From the NCBI RefSeq assembly GCF_947331815.1, contig NZ_OX373462.1, positions 1,847,376 through 1,911,375 of the forward strand: a stretch of DNA of 64,000 nt, in the 5' to 3' direction. Made by a program: the position numbers and the translations under genes. Below, piece after piece: positions 4,564 to 50,192 of the stretch (its first letter is position 1; each line of letters opens with the position of its first letter). The DNA comes from Cyanobacterium sp. uoEpiScrs1. Lineage in GTDB: Bacteria; Cyanobacteriota; Cyanobacteriia; Cyanobacteriales; Microcystaceae. Under the pieces are notes generated by a model, which was given only the letters and a program-made list of their open reading frames with translations, was not told where the DNA came from and searched no databases.

Positions 4564-4610
4564 ATAAAACCTAAGTAAGATAGACAAAGTCTATCTTACT
4601 TAGGTTTTAT
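4564..4610 (-). terminator. 22-bp perfect hairpin directly after the minus-strand gene
   Basis: Arms 4564-4585 and 4589-4610 pair perfectly with a three-base loop (AAA). The right arm abuts the TAA stop at 4611-4613, so on the minus strand the stem begins immediately after the stop codon. Confidence 0.8.
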
Positions 4611-4973
4611 TTAAAGAGAATCTTGATATATTTGTCGTTTTCTAACAGGAATTATTAAGGAAGTTCCTTCCCCGACAGGAGGATAGATCTGTATTTTTCC
4701 GCGCTCAGTAAAATTTTGTAAATAATACCCTAGAATTGCAACACGTTTAAGAATACGTAAATTAGTTGAATGATCAGGACAGGTAATTACTAAAGTTAAT
4801 ACATTAAGGGAACTGGTAAGATACCATCCACACTGGGACAATAAGGTTTGGAGTGAGCAATCGCAAGATTCATAGAAATGTTGACCGATGATTTCATCAA
4901 GTCTCCGTTGCAGTCCGAAGTCCGTCGTACTTTGCATAGGTAAGTCTTCGGGGGGAAGGAAGGGAGTGTTCAT
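4611..4973 (-). CDS. Hypothetical protein, 120 residues
   Basis: I do not recognise the family. The frame has the codon pattern of the certain genes here, ends at a perfect 22-bp hairpin and starts with ATG, so it is probably real. The protein begins MNTPFLPPEDLPMQSTTDFG and has no membrane segment or signal peptide. Its C-terminal half (YLQNFTERGKIQIYPPVGEGTSL, then IPVRKR) looks like a small alpha/beta domain. Two Cys (ESCDCSLQTLLSQCGW) lie close together. It is likely a cyanobacterial conserved protein of unknown role. Spacers of 1.1 kb and 0.9 kb isolate it, so neighbours give no clue. Confidence 0.7.
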   Translation of the reverse strand: MNTPFLPPEDLPMQSTTDFGLQRRLDEIIGQHFYESCDCSLQTLLSQCGWYLTSSLNVLTLVITCPDHSTNLRILKRVAILGYYLQNFTERGKIQIYPPVGEGTSLIIPVRKRQIYQDSL

Positions 4974-5855
4974 GAGAAGTATGAGTTAGATATCGGTTAT
5001 CTTCTCTATTATCTAATGTTGATGGACACTTATGAAAAATAATATAGAAAAAGATATAAAAAAAGTTATTTTTATTTAATATATTTCTTTAAATTTAATG
5101 TGATGATTTTATTATTTTCAGAAAAAATATCAATAAGTTAAGTATAAACCCATAAAATTACCGATATTTATGAAATCTAAATATAACCGTCTATATAAAA
5201 TTAATTATATTGGTAATTAATTTTATATAGCTAGCTTTTAAAATATTTAACTTAATTAAGTTGTTTTTTAATGGTAAATATCACAAATACCTTGATTATT
5301 AATTCTGTCACGACAATGACAATTCAAATATTGCTCTAAGAACACTATTTTCTAATAATAAAAAAAATAAAATTTTTACTCAGTCTTTTATAAAAATATT
5401 CTTCACTTTAGACATGTTTGTGATTTGTTTACTATTTTGTTATTTGCCAACTAATTATATACATAACTAGACTTATTTTAAAATAAATTGATACTTATAA
5501 GTTCAAAAGTAAGTAGCTATAGGTTAAAATCTTATTGAGTTAAAGTTTGTGTCTAAATAACAATTATAATATTTATTTATATCCACTTCTTAGAGGAAAA
5601 ACAAATCAGAACTGTTGTGAATATAGATAAAAAATTTTTTATTGCATGTAATGATTTGAATTTTTATCTATTAGCTATTGTTTTCTTTCACTGTTGAAAT
5701 ATAAGGTTAATCTATAATTGACAATATTTCTCTTGTGGGTCTAGCACTTTATCTCCTTTTGCCTTCTTAAATGAGTTTAGGTGATAGTTCATCGTGAAAG
5801 TTTGAGAGTTTTGCAATACAGTGGTAAGAGTTCAAATAATTACTGCTTAAAATCT
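4974..5855. other. Gene-free spacer with an orphan hairpin
   Basis: About 0.9 kb of AT-rich DNA between two divergent genes. It must hold both promoters. A 17-bp perfect inverted repeat lies at 5191-5230 where no gene ends. Nothing else coding is visible. Confidence 0.5.
5191..5230. repeat. Orphan 17-bp perfect inverted repeat
   Basis: Arms 5191-5207 and 5214-5230 (CTATATAAAATTAATTA and complement), six-base loop TATTGG. It lies between divergently transcribed genes, so it cannot be the terminator of either. It may be a leftover terminator of a lost gene or end a small RNA. Confidence 0.55.
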
Positions 5856-13258: not shown

Positions 13259-13831
13259 CTACGTGTTTTTACCTCATTAATGTTCTATAGGTTGTCTTGC
13301 GTTCCTTCAGTTTCCCTAACTTACTTCCGTCTCTTCACAACCTCTTTCTGTTAGCTATGTCGAGATGAACGATGATGTGCCGAATTTCATCTCTTACTAA
13401 GCTACATAAGTTTCAACACAAATGTCAACTCCTGGTAAAAATTTATTATTTTTTTTCAGTTTAGTTAGATTTTTATTGAGAATAATAGTCAAAAAGCGAA
13501 TCTGAAAGCAGACTATTTGAAGACGCAATATTAAAATCTATCTATTAATAAGTACATAAATTTAAAATAAGGTCAAAAATCCAAAGTAGAAAGGGTTTTA
13601 TATGAAGGGTGATTGTCAATAGATTGGATAGTCTATAAATTCAGCTATTAATAACACTTGAGTAATAATTGTTTGGGAATATTATTAATAGACAATTGTA
13701 AGATTCCCAAGGAGTGGAAGATAGCAAAAAAATTATGATTTTTAAATTTAAAAGATGCTCTATAGGTAATACACTAATTGCCAGACTATAACTACAATCT
13801 CATATTTATAATTAGAATCTTGTTTGGATAA
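13259..13831. other. Spacer between ribE and the small membrane gene; G+C-richer leader
   Basis: Bases about 13280-13430, read on the minus strand, are clearly richer in G+C than other spacers here and lead directly into the small membrane gene. They contain only short frames, so a structured 5' leader or a small RNA is possible. The remaining part, toward ribE, is AT-rich and featureless. Confidence 0.4.
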
Positions 13832-15857: not shown

Positions 15858-16937
15858 ATGGTCAATACATTAGGTAAAGTTACTCCAACACAAGTAGGAT
15901 CAACAACTAAAGTCCCTGTCAAAGAAACTCTTCTCACCCCGCGTTTTTACACAACAGATTTTGAAACTGCTGCAAATCTATCTCTGACAGAACAAGAAAG
16001 AGAATTAAACGCGATGTTGACGGAGATGAGAAAAGACTACAATCGTCAACATTTTGTCCGCGATGAAGAATTCAATACAGGTTCTTGGGACCATTTAGAC
16101 GAAGTAGTAAAAAAAGGATTTATCGAATATCTTGAACGATCTTGTCTCTCGGAATTTTCTGGGTTCCTTTTGTTTAAAGAACTTTCCCGAAAACTGAAAG
16201 GACGTAGCCATGTCTTATCAGAAATATTTCACTTGATGGCGCGGGATGAGGCGCGTCATGCTGGATTTTTAAATAAGGCAATGGCTGACTTTAACTCATC
16301 TCTAGATTTAGGGAAAATAACGAAAACCCGTACCTATACCTTTTTCCCTTTAGAATGGGTCATTTATACTGTCTATCTATCTGAAAAAATTGGATATTGG
16401 CGTTATATTATTATTTTTAATCATCTAGAAAAACATCCTGAAAAGAAATTTTATCCTATTTTTAAAAAGTTTGAGAATTGGTGTCAAGATGAAAATCGTC
16501 ACGGGGACATTTTTGCCGCATTGTTACGCTCTCAACCTAAACTGTGGAACACTTGGCAATCCAGATTATGGAGTCGTTTTTTCCTCTTATCTGTCTTTGT
16601 GACTCATACCTTGACCGTTCATGAAAGAACTGATTTTTATGAGTCTTTAGGATTAAACGCCACAGAATTTGATCAAGAAGTGATTCGTAAGACGAATCAA
16701 ACATCAGCACGAGCATTCCCCAGTATTCTTGATGTGGATAGTCCTGAATTTTATCCTCGTTTACAACGATGTTCTGAGCGTAACTTAAAGATGAAAGCTA
16801 TCGGAGAAAGTGATGCTCCTAGAATTGTAAAGTTTTTAAGTAAATTGCCGTTAATTATTGGAATCATTGGAGATTTGTTGCGAATTTATTTGCTTAAACC
16901 TATAGATGCAGAAGCCTTACGAGGAACAATTTATTGA
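15858..16937 (+). CDS. acsF: Mg-protoporphyrin IX monomethyl ester (oxidative) cyclase, aerobic form
   Basis: 359 residues, full length for AcsF/CHL27. The diiron motifs are present: FLLFKELSRKL, then ARDEARHAGFLNKAMADF (ExxH), and CQDENRHGDIFAALLRSQP (second ExxH). The enzyme forms the isocyclic ring of chlorophyll using O2, after Mg insertion by the ChlIDH complex. Being the O2-dependent type, it needs oxygen in the same cell. No disruption is visible, which together with chlI argues that chlorophyll is still made. A hairpin in the leader and a 12-bp terminator at 16963 frame the gene. Confidence 0.97.
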   Translation: MVNTLGKVTPTQVGSTTKVPVKETLLTPRFYTTDFETAANLSLTEQERELNAMLTEMRKDYNRQHFVRDEEFNTGSWDHLDEVVKKGFIEYLERSCLSEFSGFLLFKELSRKLKGRSHVLSEIFHLMARDEARHAGFLNKAMADFNSSLDLGKITKTRTYTFFPLEWVIYTVYLSEKIGYWRYIIIFNHLEKHPEKKFYPIFKKFENWCQDENRHGDIFAALLRSQPKLWNTWQSRLWSRFFLLSVFVTHTLTVHERTDFYESLGLNATEFDQEVIRKTNQTSARAFPSILDVDSPEFYPRLQRCSERNLKMKAIGESDAPRIVKFLSKLPLIIGIIGDLLRIYLLKPIDAEALRGTIY

Positions 16938-20331: not shown

Positions 20332-21395
20332 ATGGATGTCAAAGCATCTGTTACCTTTGAGGCTGGTAAACCTCTCAGTATCGAAACAGTACAAGTCTAA
20401 GGACCAAAAAAAGGGGAGATTTTAGTAGAAGTTAAAGCTACTGGAGTTTGTCACACTGATGCCTATACCTTATCCGGGAAAGATCTTGAAGGTCTCTTTC
20501 CCGTCATTCTCGGACATGAAGGGGTAGGAGTTGTGGTTGAGTTAGGGGAGGGGGTAACCAGCCTCAAACCAGGCGATCATGTTATACTACTCTGTGTCCC
20601 TGAATGTCGTCAGTGTAAATACTGTTTAAGCCTTAAAACTAATCTATGTCAGGCAATTCGTTCAACTCAGGGACGGGGAGTTATGCCTGACGGTACCAGC
20701 CGTTTCTCCATAGGCAAAAAGTCCATCTACCACTATATGGGAACTTCTACTTTTGCTAACTACACTATAGTTCCAGAAATTTCGCTAGCAAAAATTCGTA
20801 AAGATGCCCCTTTCGAGAAGATTTGTTACATTGGCTGTGGGGTAACAACGGAAATTAGTGTAGTAGTCAATACAGCTAAGATTGAGCCTGGTTCTAATGT
20901 AGTAGTGTTTGGGCTAGGATGCGTTGGCTTGAATGTGATCCAAGGAGCGAAAATAGTTGGAGCTAATGGACGTTTGGCATACCCCATTTCGTTAATCCCA
21001 CGGAAATTGATGGTGATTTAGTAGGACACTTAGTAGAGTTAACTAAAGGAGGAGCAGATTATAGTTTTGAATGCATTGGTAATGTTAAAGTTATGCGACA
21101 AGCTTTGGAATGTTCCCATAAAGGTTGGGGCGTTTCTGCCGTTGTGGGAGTAGCCGGTGCAGATGAAGAGATTAGTACTCGTCCATTTCAATTGGCCACC
21201 GGACGAGTCTGGAAAGGAAGCGCATTTGGTGGTGCAAGAGGACGTACAGATGTTCCTAAAATTGTTGATTGGTATATGGATGGTAGAATTAACATTGATG
21301 ATTTAATCACCAATATCATGCCTTTGGAAGAGATTAACAAGGCGTTTGATCTAATGCAAAGGGGTGAATCTATCCGAAGTGTTATTACATTCTAA
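20332..21395 (+). pseudogene. frmA: Broken glutathione-dependent formaldehyde dehydrogenase (class III alcohol dehydrogenase)
   Basis: The remnant keeps nearly the whole FrmA/AdhC sequence: [40 protein letters not shown], the structural-zinc Cys cluster PECRQCKYC, and GRVWKGSAFGGARGRTD at the end. Two lesions kill it. Codon 23 is TAA (20398-20400), where relatives have Glu. At 20968-20984 a deletion removes about 20 residues of the NAD-binding domain and shifts the frame, so the tail ([15 protein letters not shown] from 20985) is in another phase. Everything between still reads well, so inactivation is recent. The intact enzyme oxidises S-hydroxymethylglutathione. An internal frame 20533-21021 should not be annotated as a functional protein. 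Confidence 0.93.
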
Positions 21396-21469: not shown

Positions 21470-22237
21470 TTAACTGTCTTTTGACTCCTGTTTTTTTAAC
21501 TCATCTTCAGGAATATGTTCTAACATTCTCTCTATCAGATCTTGCATGACAAAGTTTTCATTTCCATTCCAACGTTCTAAAGTTTCAATGTGTTTCATTT
21601 TCAGGGCAAGGTTGAGAACCTCTATACCTCCACCGTGTATATTAATACTCAATTCCTCAGTTTCAGGTAAAGGAAGTTTGCTCTTTTCTTTGAAATAAGT
21701 ATCAATTGCTGCACTTCTCTTTTCAGGATCATCATGTTGATTTTCAATTTCCATTAACTCTTTTTCTAAAAGTTCAGCATTACGGATACAAACATCATCT
21801 CGCTCAAAGAAATCATCATAATTAGGTATAGAAAGTTGAGTATGAGGGGGGGTAGTAAACAATTTATTAACAATTCGTAGTCGAGTAGGTTCGGCTACCC
21901 GCCAGTTAATTCTTTTAGTAAAAAAATTAAGAGCCTTAATCACTCGTTCAAAAGAACGCAATTCTAATAACATTTCTCGATCAGTCTTAAAAATAAAATA
22001 GCCTATAATAATTGGATGTTTTTCTTTAGGGATTTTGTTATATGAAATTTCAAACTTTATTTTTTCTGCTTCAGCTTTATAGAACCAAACCCAGCACTTA
22101 CGTGCTGGGTCATACTCCACACATTTCAGTTTCTTAAAAACTCCTAAAATAGTTTTTTTATTAGTAACTTTGTAGTAAATTCTTACTGGTTGAAAAGGTT
22201 CTCCGGTGATGTTTGTGACTAGCAATTCTTCTGACAT
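21470..22237 (-). CDS. Hypothetical protein, 255 residues
   Basis: A soluble protein with no signal peptide or membrane helix. It starts MSEELLVTNITGEPFQPVRIYYKV and has an N-terminal half of mixed beta character and a C-terminal half rich in Glu/Lys helices ending EHIPEDELKKQESKDS. Several Trp/Tyr-rich segments (KCWVWFYKAEAEKIKFEI) suggest a folded domain. I do not recognise the family; length and codon use support a real gene, probably conserved among unicellular cyanobacteria. It is convergent with the frmA remnant, with 74 bases between them and no strong terminator there. Confidence 0.75.
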   Translation of the reverse strand: MSEELLVTNITGEPFQPVRIYYKVTNKKTILGVFKKLKCVEYDPARKCWVWFYKAEAEKIKFEISYNKIPKEKHPIIIGYFIFKTDREMLLELRSFERVIKALNFFTKRINWRVAEPTRLRIVNKLFTTPPHTQLSIPNYDDFFERDDVCIRNAELLEKELMEIENQHDDPEKRSAAIDTYFKEKSKLPLPETEELSINIHGGGIEVLNLALKMKHIETLERWNGNENFVMQDLIERMLEHIPEDELKKQESKDS

Positions 22238-22927: not shown

Positions 22928-23009
22928 TCAAGACAAACCATTATAAATAAAATCAAAAAAAATTAGAGTTATAATTTTTTTTGATTTTATTTATAATGGT
23001 TTGTCTTGA
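22928..23009. repeat. 38-bp perfect inverted repeat
   Basis: Arms 22928-22965 and 22972-23009 pair without a mismatch; loop GAGTTA (six bases). The right arm begins TAATTTTTTTTGATTTTATT and ends GTTTGTCTTGA. It is the longest stem in the window. It lies 69 bases beyond the rlmN stop on the minus strand, but rlmN already has its own terminator at 23040-23074 in between, so its job is unexplained. Confidence 0.85.
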
Positions 23010-23039
23010 AATTAATTTAATGCCTATTATTCTCTTGGT

Positions 23040-23074
23040 AAATTAGTAGCAGTATTAAATGCTGCTACTAATTT
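23040..23074 (-). terminator. 13-bp hairpin after rlmN
   Basis: AAATTAGTAGCAG (23040-23052) pairs with 23062-23074; nine-base loop. It starts four bases after the rlmN stop on the minus strand. Confidence 0.75.
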
Positions 23075-23077
23075 ATT

Positions 23078-24103
23078 TTAAAACGAGTCTGAATATCGTA
23101 ACTGTCCACAAGCAGCGTTAGCTTCTAATCCTCGTGAATAGCGAATACTAACAGCGATTTTTTGTTGTTTAAGAATATTGACAAAAGTTTGAGTTTTATC
23201 CTGACTAGGACGTTGATAGTTAGCTCCTTCAATAGGATTATAAGGTATCAAATTAACATGACTTTGAAATCCCCGTAATTTATTAGCTAATTCAATAGCA
23301 TGATAAGAAAAATTATTAACTCCCTCTAACAAGATATATTCAAAAGTTATTCGCCGTCGAGTGATTTCAACATATTTCCTGCAATCTTCTAATAATTGCT
23401 TTATGGGATAAGAGCTCGCACTGGGGATTAATTTTTCTCGCAAGGCTTGGTTAGAAGCATGAAGACTGATAGCAAAAGTAACTTGCAGGTGCTGGTTAGC
23501 TAATTTAATAATCTTTTGAGGCAGTCCTACAGTAGAAATAGTCAATGATCGCTGACTAATCTGCATATCTTGATTAAGAATTTTTATAGCGGAGATTACC
23601 GCTTCGAAGTTAAGTAACGGTTCTCCCATTCCCATGAAGACAACATGACTTACTCTCCGCTGAAAATCTTTTTGAACTGTTAAAACTTGATCCACGATTT
23701 CATGAGCTTTAAGATTACGATCATAGCCTCCCTTTCCCGTAGCACAAAAGTTGCAAGCCATGGGGCACCCTACCTGAGAAGAAACACAAACAGTTAGACG
23801 TTTAGTGGTGGGAATGCCAACAACTTCAATAATTAAGCCATCATCAAGAGATAATAAATATTTTCGAGTATTATCTTGAGAAATAGTACGATATTTGATT
23901 TTTGAACGACCAACAGGATAATTTTTCAGTTTTTCACGCCAAGTCTTTGGAAAAATATGGATTTCCTCTAGAGATCGTGCCCCTTTTTGATACAACCACT
24001 GATGAAGTTGTTTGCCTCGATAAGCTGGTTGTCCCTGTTGTTGTGCCCAATAGGTCAACTCTTCTAAAGATTTACCTAGAAGAGTTTCTTCTGTTGAAAT
24101 CAT
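23078..24103 (-). CDS. rlmN: Dual-specificity RNA (adenine-C2) methyltransferase RlmN
   Basis: 341 residues, full length. The radical-SAM cluster motif is CPMACNFC (about residues 115-122, CxxxCxxC). [15 protein letters not shown] and STVGLPQKI are family signatures, and the C-terminal catalytic Cys is in ANAACGQLR. The enzyme methylates C2 of A2503 in 23S rRNA and A37 of some tRNAs, using two SAM. It acts in the cytosol on newly made RNA. The N-terminal accessory domain ([24 protein letters not shown]) is intact. Divergent from remA-gmk with 629 bases between. Confidence 0.96.
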
Positions 24104-25016: not shown

Positions 25017-25580
25017 ATGCCATCAGGACAGCTTATAGTACTGACGGGGCCTAGTGGAGTTGGTAAAGGGACGCTCGTTCGTTCCTTACTAGCACGCCAT
25101 AATGACCTTTATTTGTCTATCTCTGCTACTACCCGTTCTCCTCGTAGAGGAGAGATAGATGGAAAAGATTACTATTTTGTTACACGTTCCCAATTTAAAA
25201 AGATGATCGACCAGGGAGAATTATTAGAGTGGGCAGAATATGCTAACAATTGCTATGGTACTCCTCGTTTTGATATAGAAAAAAAACTTAACTCAGGGAT
25301 AAAAGTATTATTAGAAATTGATGTAGTAGGAGCAAGAAATATTAAACAAACTTTTCCTGATGCTCTCAGAATTTTCGTTCTACCTCCATCTTTAGAGGAA
25401 TTAGAGCGCCGTCTGAGGGGACGAGACAAGGACTCACAAGAAGCTATTACTTGTCGTCTAGAACAAGCTAAAAAAGAATTGATAGCTAGCAGAGAATTTA
25501 ACCACATCATTGTTAATGATAACCTAAGTCAATCATTGCAAAAGTTTGAAAATATTATTTTTGCTATTGAGTTAAATTGA
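25017..25580 (+). CDS. gmk: Guanylate kinase
   Basis: 187 residues. P-loop GPSGVGKGT (about residues 10-18); GMP-binding residues in TRSPRRGEIDGKDYYFV and EWAEYANNCYGTP; lid segment ELERRLRGRDKDS. It phosphorylates GMP to GDP with ATP in the cytosol, so it is essential for GTP, RNA and DNA synthesis. It overlaps no other gene and is 14 bases after remA. In some cyanobacteria psaJ and psaF are next to gmk; here 0.9 kb of non-coding DNA follows instead. Confidence 0.97.
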   Translation: MPSGQLIVLTGPSGVGKGTLVRSLLARHNDLYLSISATTRSPRRGEIDGKDYYFVTRSQFKKMIDQGELLEWAEYANNCYGTPRFDIEKKLNSGIKVLLEIDVVGARNIKQTFPDALRIFVLPPSLEELERRLRGRDKDSQEAITCRLEQAKKELIASREFNHIIVNDNLSQSLQKFENIIFAIELN

Positions 25581-26502
25581 GGGTAAGTCAATTGTATATT
25601 CCTAACATTATGGACTTAATTTGTTTGTCGGTTTTATTTAAAGAATAAAGTCTCTACCTCAATATCGTCGTTTTTCAGCATTCAGTGTTTGCTAGGGATT
25701 TAGTAGCTAAATTCTTAGTGATAGTGGAAGTGTAATATTGATTTCACTGCATAGTGATAATTATCACGCCAAAATCTAAGACTTTAGCAATCAAAGAACT
25801 ATTAACTTTACTACCTTATTATGTTTATAGTTGAATAATATAATTTCTTTTCTTTCATAAGAATTATCTTGTTTGTACGAAGAAATTATTATCATATACG
25901 GTTAATATATAAAAATATTTAAGAAGATATTATGAAATCTAGTCCATAATAATTTCTATCTGCTATCAAGGATATTAATCAATAATATTGATACAAACCA
26001 ACAATGTAGTTTACAAAAATTTCTAAATTTTTTTATAAAATTTAATACTTACAGAATAAACTTTATAAAGTCAAAAATATAAACATACATTCTAGTCGAT
26101 ACTTAGTTATTGACTGTAAAGTTCGTGATAGTACAAAATGTATAAAAATTTTGATAAGTTAATTATTATCAGGTGATTATCTGATTAATGGAATGTTGTC
26201 ACAGACTAAGAAAGTATCTCTCTAACACAAAAAGAAAAGCAATACTAATTAACATAAAATAAACTTTGCACCTCCTAGCAAACTTTTTTAGATAATTCTT
26301 AATCTTTTACAAAATTGATGAAAGTAATAAGTCACCCCTGCAAAAAACAAATCCACCGATAACTTTTTCTGTATTTTAAATTATCTGAGGTGGTTTACTA
26401 CTGGAATTACCAATGATTAGTACTACTTTTCGATATTAGAATGTAATAGCATACCAGATTAGCTAATTACCAATAATGAGAGTATTCATTATTGGTAATT
26501 AG
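25581..26502. other. 0.92-kb gene-free spacer after gmk
   Basis: No reading frame of note. The first 200 bases are a little less AT-rich and could be an eroded gene; I could not align them convincingly to anything. The htrA terminator hairpin closes the region at 26454-26511. Confidence 0.5.
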
Positions 26503-26511
26503 CTAATCTGG
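26454..26511 (-). terminator. 26-bp perfect hairpin overlapping the htrA stop codon
   Basis: Arms 26454-26479 and 26486-26511 pair perfectly, loop GAGTAT. The last nine bases of htrA, stop included, lie inside the stem, so coding and termination share the same bases. Confidence 0.8.
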
Positions 26512-45845: not shown

Positions 45846-46762
45846 AGGTAACACTATTATAGTTGGATGTATTAGCGAGATTTATCTTAGCAAATGATCA
45901 CCAATATTCGTCAAAAGACAATATGTCAAACTTAAAGAGTATAGGACGTTTATTTTTTCGTATAAATATCAATACAGCAAAAGATATTTTGACCTTATTT
46001 AAAGGCTGTTACAATGTGTATTTTAAATTTCAACTAAAACAATATAAAAGCATTTTCTAATCTTTTACATTGTTTTGTAATTTCAACAAATCTTGAAGTA
46101 CAGAATAAATAGTCAATAAATAAAGATCTTAGGTCAAAATAGATGTTTGTTGTCTATGTTTAGACTTGCTAAATAAATTAGTTTTTTACTACTAAAATAG
46201 TAAAAAACTAATTTATGCTTGTTTCATTAGTTGCCGTCAATCAGCTTTATCTAAATAAATAACTTATTAATAGTACTCGTAACAGTTAACCTGTAAATTT
46301 TAAATTTTTTACTCTAACAGAAAAGTAATTTAATATTAGTTAATCTAATATTATTAGAATTTATTTAAAATAGACTAAGAATAGAGATAAACATTCTACA
46401 ATTATGATAATATTCTGGTTTTTTAGGTAGGTATTTTAAGATAAGAGAAATATTTTTTATTATTGATAATATTGCAATAAACAATGTTGTCAATAATAAA
46501 CTTAGTCATTTTATATAAGAAATAAAAGTCATATAATTTATTTTGCAAACTATTCATTATCTAAATAACTAGTTAAGATCCTTTTGTCAGAAAAAATTGA
46601 GAATTTCGGATCAAATAATCCAGACTTAGTTTCACTTTTTTTGAATAAAAAAATAGTATTTCTAGTTTTTTTTCTTAGTTTATATGTAAACTACAGATGT
46701 TAGATTTTGTTGATTTTGCGACTGACCATATCATACTAATGATATAACTGTAACAGGTTAAG
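45846..46762. other. 0.9-kb gene-poor spacer with an orphan hairpin
   Basis: A weak frame at 45924-46060 (MSNLKSIGRLFFRINI...) is possible but unconvincing. A 19-bp inverted repeat follows at 46173-46216. The remainder is AT-rich up to the GH116 gene. Both neighbours start here, so two promoters must be present. Confidence 0.45.
46173..46216. repeat. Orphan 19-bp perfect inverted repeat
   Basis: Arms 46173-46191 and 46198-46216, loop CTAAAA. The core ATTAGTTTTTTACTA contains T-runs on both strands, as in a bidirectional terminator, but no known gene ends nearby; the flanking genes both start on this spacer. Confidence 0.6.
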
Positions 46763-49641: not shown

Positions 49642-50166
49642 ATGTTTAAAAAACTACTCTTAGGAGAATATATCGGAGTATTACCTTTACTATTAGGAGC
49701 AGGAGGACTTCCAACGTGGAGTCAAACTGAGTTTCCTCTATTAGGAAGTACATTGAAACAGATGACTCAGGAGTATACTATTGTTCAGACTTTTAATAAT
49801 CCTACCGCAAAAGACTTAGAAAAATTTGCTCAAACTGTCAAAAAACAACGAAATTTAGCTCAAGATACTAAAGAAAAAATACTTGAAGTTCTTGATGGGG
49901 AAGGATTAAGTAGACAACGTTTTCGAGAAATAGCTCAACGAAAGAGTACTCTAGGAGTATCTATAGAAGACTTTTCAGATGAAGATTTTGAAAAGTTCAA
50001 GAATGTTTTCCCCAAAGTTAAAAAAATTGCTCAAGAAGATCTGCTTAAGCAAAAAAGATTAATAAGATCTCAAGGATTTACCATTCAGGAGTTTAATGCG
50101 ATCGCTACTGAAGTTCAAAATAATCCTTCTCTACAACGAGAAGTCCTTAGACTCATAAGAGACTAG
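49642..50166 (+). CDS. DUF4168 protein, exported (copy 1)
   Basis: 174 residues. The start (MFKKLLLGEYIGVLPLLLGAGG) is a signal-like hydrophobic stretch. The rest is helical: DLEKFAQTVKKQRNLAQDTKEKILEVLDGEGLSRQRFREIAQ and, at the end, IRSQGFTIQEFNAIATEVQNNPSLQREVLRLI, the typical DUF4168 pattern of FAxxV ... RFxEIA ... NPxLQxxV. Function unknown; periplasmic location inferred. The 3' end of the coding sequence forms the left arm of a 20-bp hairpin. It contains the only HIP1 octamer I noticed (50098-50105). A second family member lies beyond glgP. Confidence 0.85.
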   Translation: MFKKLLLGEYIGVLPLLLGAGGLPTWSQTEFPLLGSTLKQMTQEYTIVQTFNNPTAKDLEKFAQTVKKQRNLAQDTKEKILEVLDGEGLSRQRFREIAQRKSTLGVSIEDFSDEDFEKFKNVFPKVKKIAQEDLLKQKRLIRSQGFTIQEFNAIATEVQNNPSLQREVLRLIRD

Positions 50167-50192
50167 ATCTTGTATGAGTCTAAGGACTTCTC
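50138..50192 (+). terminator. 20-bp perfect hairpin enclosing the stop codon
   Basis: Arms 50138-50157 (inside the coding sequence) and 50173-50192 pair perfectly; the TAG stop at 50164-50166 is in the 15-base loop. TATACC follows rather than a T-run. Confidence 0.7.

Follow-up and report, generated by a model that had tools for sequence, protein, structure and literature searches.

Quasipalindrome mutations, or short-range template switches, turn an imperfect inverted repeat into a longer perfect stem by copying one of its arms, according to the accessible parts of two reports (PMC8794818, PMC7202029), the first of which describes perfect stems made in a single event. Inversion of the loop is, in the accessible descriptions, an expected by-product of such mutations. 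Many long perfect inverted repeats are also found in the mitochondrial genes of nematomorphs, again in reduced genomes, and template switching is listed by the authors as a possible mechanism in the available part of their report (PMC6649704). A study of inverted-repeat frequency in endosymbionts made the same tie between inverted repeats and endosymbiosis that we see here, but its available text neither mentions template switching nor singles out long perfect stems (PMC10434271). A survey covering 118,019 genomes found perfect inverted repeats to be enriched at transcription ends, and its main text, as available, contains none of the strings “endosymbio”, “cyanobacteri” or “template switch” (PMC13155455). 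How long perfect hairpins originate, and what keeps them perfect, is an open question to which template switching is one proposed answer.

We investigated a hairpin with a perfect 38-bp stem near the end of rlmN in Cyanobacterium sp. uoEpiScrs1, which appears to be a nitrogen-fixing endosymbiont of a diatom, within an analysed stretch of 64,000 nucleotides (hereafter, the window). As judged from sequence comparison, this hairpin is likely to be the recent product of a template-switch (quasipalindrome) mutation that copied one arm onto the other, and it probably has no conserved function. Four observations underlie this reading: the stem is perfect, it is absent from three collinear sister genomes, only one of its arms has a match in the sister genome G001, and similar steps are seen at other hairpins in the window. 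The polymerase mechanism, the repeats that seeded the switch and the absence of a conserved function are what we infer.

Similar to the described quasipalindrome systems, an imperfect inverted repeat would here have become a longer perfect stem with a copied arm, and an inverted loop is seen between two of the sisters, G001 and G005. Unlike in those systems, the events are deduced from the comparison of sister genomes alone, and they concern stems 16-38 bp long, with a density of about 29-32 per 100 kb of non-coding DNA. The nematomorph palindromes lie inside protein genes, as far as the available text describes them (PMC6649704), whereas the endosymbiont stems lie nearly all outside open reading frames (ORFs; 45 of the 48 stems in 464 kb of this genome). 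With intrinsic terminators the rlmN stem has in common that it is a stable hairpin downstream of a gene; it differs in that it has no T-run, is not conserved in the sisters, and lies beyond a shorter hairpin that already stands at the rlmN end.

A literature search, with most subscription papers outside its scope, returned no paper that describes long perfect hairpins as characteristic of these endosymbionts. The strings “palindrom” and “hairpin” are absent from the available text of PMC5638926, PMC12903740 and PMC11637426, and two papers dealing heavily with UCYN-A, PMC11637426 among them, use “inverted repeat” for other things in the text available. The mechanism and the link between inverted repeats and endosymbiosis are already known; such a scale in these endosymbionts is unreported in the literature searched. 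With so many fresh cases and collinear sisters, one could measure how stems are born and lost, which polarity the process has and how stems are recruited at gene ends, and this bears on how genomes change as they become organelles. A word of caution also follows: the perfection of a stem in genomes of this kind should not by itself be taken as evidence of selection, even where paired changes accompany it.

The rlmN hairpin and its spacer

The original prediction described a perfect 38-bp stem with a six-base loop, and the description was confirmed. An inverted-repeat search paired 38 of 38 positions (arms 100% complementary and 6 nt apart), and among perfect inverted repeats with arms at most 200 nt apart this is the longest in the window. 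Folded as RNA, a 141-nt stretch reached -49.7 kcal/mol (z -10.8), which none of 200 shuffles equalled, and the DNA fold of the hairpin stretch gave -36.6 (z -10.75). It is a perfect stem longer than chance gives, as is expected of a template-switch product.

The hairpin sits in an 840-nt spacer that extends from rlmN, on the minus strand, to position 22237, where another minus-strand ORF starts, and the stem begins 69 nt from the rlmN end (23078). The shorter hairpin between them (Table 1) was given 14 of 14 pairs in one detection and 18 pairs at 94% in another. It had been predicted to be a 13-bp terminator belonging to rlmN; the gene end and the intervening hairpin are both there, but no T-run lies 3' of it on rlmN's strand, and a terminator scan called it on the plus strand only. 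The 38-bp stem is followed by no T-run on either strand and drew no call from the same scan; it lacks the combination of a hairpin and an immediate T-run on the transcribed strand that marks an intrinsic terminator. The loop had further been likened to that of the htrA hairpin. The letters of GAGTTA and GAGTAT are indeed alike, and only these two loops begin with GAGT among the 123 perfect stems of four genomes, but we read the resemblance as chance because in G001 the loop at htrA, AAGTAT, is nearly the same.

Table 1 Coordinates of the rlmN hairpin, its surroundings and other perfect hairpins in the window
Feature	Position	Strand	Remarks
Left arm of the 38-bp hairpin	22928..22965		Likely the old arm: matched by sister DNA (score 40 in the G001 spacer, collinear)
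Loop GAGTTA	22966..22971		From the inverted-repeat search and the sequence
Right arm of the 38-bp hairpin	22972..23009		Likely the new copy: no same-strand match in the sisters' spacers
Shorter hairpin just past the rlmN stop	23039..23075		Between rlmN and the 38-bp stem; a different hairpin occupies the aligned place in G001
rlmN, nearest gene ending at the hairpin	23078..24103	-	Radical_SAM and RlmN_N domains
22-bp perfect hairpin where gene 4611-4973 ends	4564..4610		Perfect over 34 pairs in G003, imperfect in G001 and G005
17-bp perfect hairpin in a spacer	5191..5230		Same class
26-bp perfect hairpin across the htrA stop	26454..26511		Loop GAGTAT; sisters have a shorter imperfect repeat (G001 loop AAGTAT)
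19-bp perfect hairpin in a spacer	46173..46216		Same class
20-bp perfect hairpin formed by the DUF4168 gene end and a copy of it	50138..50192		Sisters have a short imperfect repeat

A mobile-element (MITE-like) remnant, as the original prediction suggested, could account for an inverted repeat within a spacer, and several related copies would then be expected. The 161 nt around the stem matched the genome (a single contig of 2,483,960 bases) at one place, on its two strands. None of the 136 stems sampled from four genomes was related to the rlmN stem at E <= 0.001 (the best match comprised 15 letters, E 0.011); three pairs of these stems matched each other at that threshold, with the rlmN stem in none of them. 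Plasmid records, likewise, contained no match to the rlmN spacer. The mobile-element proposal thus found no support, and we regard it as extremely improbable.

The original prediction also considered a small RNA and a structure used in replication or recombination; a long and stable stem would suit either. No Rfam family reached its gathering score for the stem, and the matches below threshold were microRNA hairpin models, as expected of any long hairpin. Promoter-like sites numbered 6, compared with 9.3 in shuffles, and the sisters are without the stem. The computations gave these roles no backing, and they appear highly improbable.

Perfect inverted repeats can also originate as chimeras, and a fold-back during sequencing or assembly could yield one here. 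Such an artefact appears very improbable, however, given that the excess of hairpins described below is found in five other genomes too. In addition, if the genome belongs to the endosymbiont of the diatom Epithemia pelagica, PacBio HiFi reads were the basis of its assembly, and neither “amplif” nor “PCR” occurs in the available text of the corresponding report (PMC11167328).

Sister genomes and the proposed template switch

Three genomes placed in the same genus and taken to be diatom endosymbionts, G001 (3,072,807), G003 (2,794,318) and G005 (3,020,309), preserve the gene order of the window. None of them has a hairpin within 40 nt of the place aligned with the 38-bp stem. The original prediction had held that such a stem is either new or selected; this was the right fork, and “new” is the better supported branch, since the aligned place is without a hairpin in three collinear sisters. 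It had also named two signs that would mark the stem as a chance or transient palindrome, one genomic and one from RNA; the genomic one, absence of the stem from sister genomes, is what we found. A scan of the genome contigs returned 6 loci, the nearest being SU2 at 81%.

In the alignment, sister DNA covers the left arm and the loop side (in window sense), and most of the right arm has no counterpart. Mean identity to the sisters in a four-way alignment was 0.67 for the left arm and 0.51 for the right, in alignments that are uncertain because the spacers are only about half identical and AT-rich. When compared with the 1.1 kb past rlmN in G001, the left arm had a match (score 40) that was equalled in none of 1000 shuffles, which, for all arm-match P values given here, preserve base composition only and not neighbouring letters. 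This match lies 228-259 nt past the rlmN stop, at the collinear place. The right arm, on the same strand, scored 26 in G001 (P=0.32), with P=0.49 in G005 and P=0.67 in G003. The left arm matched G003 near the collinear place but weakly (P=0.22), and its best match in G005 was elsewhere (P=0.17). Regarding the flanks, the right one matched G003 (P=0.005) and, marginally, G001 (P=0.049), with P=0.16 in G005, and the left one matched none of the three sisters (P=0.68, 1.00 and 1.00). Against G001, then, the stem appears to consist of one old arm and one new copy, and G005 and G003 do not decide; as the left-arm match is individually significant in G001 only, the one-armed origin rests on G001, with positional support from G003.

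These comparisons suggest the following course of events. During replication, the nascent strand would have paired through pre-existing short inverted repeats, for which G001 offers candidates in rlmN sense: TCAAGAC and GTCTTAA as the outer pair, and AATT and AATT as the inner one, all picked out by reading. The polymerase would then have written one arm as the complement of the other before returning. The outcome would be the 44 nt of loop and new right arm that here separate the right flank from the left arm, where G001 has about 80 nt. Events of this kind seem frequent in the non-coding DNA of these endosymbionts. Most of the resulting stems seem to be lost or rewritten ahead of the point mutations that would mar them, and stems at gene ends can persist, probably as terminators.

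An ancestral stem that was lost from all three sisters would also fit the diverged sister spacers, as well as the one-arm remnants and short end repeats that G001 retains. We consider this very unlikely: repeated loss would be required, an old stem should have mismatches, and stems in the collinear regions are mostly unshared anyway (36 of 43).

Steps similar to the template switch proposed for rlmN can be recognized at other perfect hairpins in the window (Table 1). The cleanest parallel, as we read the sequences, appears to be the hairpin at the DUF4168 gene. Its first arm is the end of the gene, and its outer arm is a complementary copy of this coding arm; the three sisters nearly agree on a downstream sequence with a short imperfect repeat, which is replaced here by the complement of the coding arm. 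Before gene 15858-16937, a stem common to G001 and G005 shows a paired change and a loop that is inverted between the two (tattcg versus cgaata), as template switching would do. This stem (25448-25493 in G001 and 25265-25308 in G005, in the joined reversed collinear stretches) reaches the likely start codon of the gene.

Perfect hairpins in endosymbionts and relatives

In the samples taken, perfect hairpins abound in the non-coding DNA of these endosymbionts but are rare in the relatives. This frequency was not foreseen in the original prediction, whose interpretation was, overall, partly supported. In our main count, we searched genome samples for perfect stems of at least 16 bp with loops of 3-20. 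This genome had 48 in 464 kb, G001 26 in 220 kb, G005 27 in 220 kb and G003 25 in 200 kb. Two further genomes, G013 (1,443,806) and G021 (1,491,611), hereafter called the UCYN-A-like pair from their size, had 14 in 140 kb and 14 in 120 kb, respectively, and G006 had 0 in 160 kb. Shuffled controls averaged 0.0 such stems in all seven samples (mean of 2), and neither of two dinucleotide shuffles of this genome's 464 kb contained one. When loops up to 30 were admitted and mismatches allowed at a cost, the six hairpin-rich genomes, in the order given above, had 53, 29, 29, 26, 16 and 14 stems. Eight relatives, presumed from genome size to be free-living, had 0 to 2 stems per sample: under the same relaxed count, 0 in G006, 0 in G002 (240 kb), 1 in G011 (80 kb) and 0 in G018 (40 kb), and in further samples 0 in G034 (80 kb), 1 in G031 (60 kb), 0 in G038 (180 kb) and 2 in G029 (65 kb). 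G012 was left out, as one of its two 20-kb stretches reads as N. The two stems of G029 are one 17-bp hairpin near the starts of two contigs (L163, 484-527, and L164, 199-242), perhaps a repeat element.

Outside ORFs, the density was 29-32 stems per 100 kb in the four diatom endosymbionts and 45-48 in the UCYN-A-like pair; it was 0 in G006, G002, G011 and G018, whose non-coding DNA totals just 85 kb. In these figures, “non-coding” includes decayed and short genes, because length alone (90 codons) decided what was called an ORF.

Most stems are free of mismatches. Among 136 stems from the four diatom endosymbionts, 123 had none, 11 had one, 1 had two and 1 had three; a gapped detector gave 117, 17, 3, 1 and 2 stems with 0, 1, 2, 3 and 4 edits, respectively. 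Steady birth with mutational decay would lead us to expect stems that are perfect, with one mismatch and with more at 1 : 0.32 : 0.09, compared with the 1 : 0.09 : 0.02 that we found. Imperfect stems being too few, the removal or rewriting of stems seems to outpace mutational damage by a factor of about two to three; selection in favour of perfect stems could deplete imperfect ones as well. Combined with the stem density, these figures give a rough equilibrium estimate of the birth rate: one new long stem per about 25 non-coding substitutions.

To compare arms and to score sharing, we retained hairpins with flanking anchors and dropped those without, which left 33 and 43 hairpins of the diatom set, respectively. 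The two arms of the 33 hairpins differed in their identity to the sisters by 0.143, compared with 0.106 in control placements (nominal P=0.024), and 17 of the 33 had no arm difference above 0.15. For the 34 unshared hairpins of the UCYN-A-like pair, the difference was 0.189 versus 0.135 in controls (nominal P=0.013). Across four collinear regions, 7 of the 43 hairpins were matched by a hairpin at the corresponding position in one or more sisters; counted by pairs, this amounts to 7/121, compared with 57/1961 in the control. The UCYN-A-like pair, which is collinear over the sampled stretches, shared 12 of 46 tested hairpins (6 places), two edge hairpins having been dropped. One of the shared stems comes after what reads like a GroEL C-terminus.

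Position relative to genes bears on whether the rlmN stem is a selected RNA element, such as a second rlmN terminator, a 3'-end stabiliser or a two-way transcription block. The stem starts 69 nt past rlmN. In this genome, hairpins outside ORFs lie within 60 nt of an ORF 3' end more often than expected (11/50 versus 5.4 expected, nominal P=0.019) and seldom within the same distance of a 5' end (1/50 versus 5.4 expected). Similarly, all 12 shared hairpins of the UCYN-A-like pair lie within 100 nt of an ORF 3' end, compared with 14 of the 34 unshared ones. Within 60 nt of 3' ends, G021 had 12 of 29 hairpins versus 4.9 expected, which is nominally significant, and G013 had 8 of 26, which is not; within 100 nt, G013 had 13 of 26 (nominal P=0.026). 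The 60-nt enrichment was, however, not significant in the three sisters of this genome (3/28 in G001, 0/27 in G005 and 4/25 in G003). Moreover, the rlmN stem is in no sister, has no T-run on either strand and was not flagged by the terminator scan, and what has a counterpart in G001 is the shorter hairpin at the rlmN end (in one mapping direction only). Taken together, a selected element is unlikely.

We read these sequence data as suggesting that stems are made in non-coding DNA regardless of function, and that those serving as terminators are retained. The shared UCYN-A-like stems resemble terminators in their position by gene 3' ends, and most stems are otherwise lineage-specific. The stem near rlmN is placed in the function-blind class because it is unshared, lies 69 nt from rlmN and has no T-run.

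Repair genes and neighbouring observations

Several repair genes were surveyed as possible sources of the hairpin excess. Loss of SbcCD was rejected as the cause: sbcD exceeded its family cut-off in each of 39 genomes, and sbcC had matches in all 39 and was over its cut-off in 32, this genome among them. Exonuclease VII (xseA) was found in 9 of 24 genomes, a draw outside which G021 fell, and was absent from this genome, G001, G003, G005 and G013. Its loss was rejected as well, since the hairpin-poor G006 and G011, and others, are likewise without xseA. RecJ was found in all 24 genomes.

RNase HII was found in 31 of 39 genomes and was absent from the six hairpin-rich genomes and from G029 and G038. 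In a class-wide draw, 286 of 289 genomes had it, the exceptions being this genome, G029 and G297. According to the available text of one report, none of these endosymbionts has RNase HII (PMC12903740), and that of another states that yeast lacking RNase H2 acquires more arm-extending quasipalindrome mutations when transcription is high (PMC3820800). Loss of RNase HII may contribute to the excess, but it is insufficient alone, because G038 (0/180 kb) and G029 (2/65 kb) lack the enzyme yet are hairpin-poor. Weak selection in endosymbionts is the other candidate cause. A broader and rather doubtful scenario would combine the two. In two N2-fixing endosymbiont lineages, loss of RNase HII and weak selection in small populations would allow template switching to turn short inverted repeats into long perfect hairpins, about one per 25 non-coding point substitutions; those at gene ends would be recruited as terminators, and the rlmN stem would be a fresh product.

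The three genomes G029, G038 and G297, all without RNase HII, are cyanobacterial genomes of 3.8-4.8 Mb. Within the window, a putative zinc-type alcohol dehydrogenase (named by reading; 20533-21395) is split into two ORFs, 20533-21021 and 21093-21395, the second of which matches the G003 region in broken pieces only. The neighbouring 21470-22237 is an open minus-strand ORF of 255 aa that has no Pfam match; it has piecemeal matches with 40-57% identity in G001 and G005 and none in the G003 region. Farther away, at 13296-13373 on the minus strand, the window contains a Glutamine riboswitch aptamer (RF01739, 51.3 bits).
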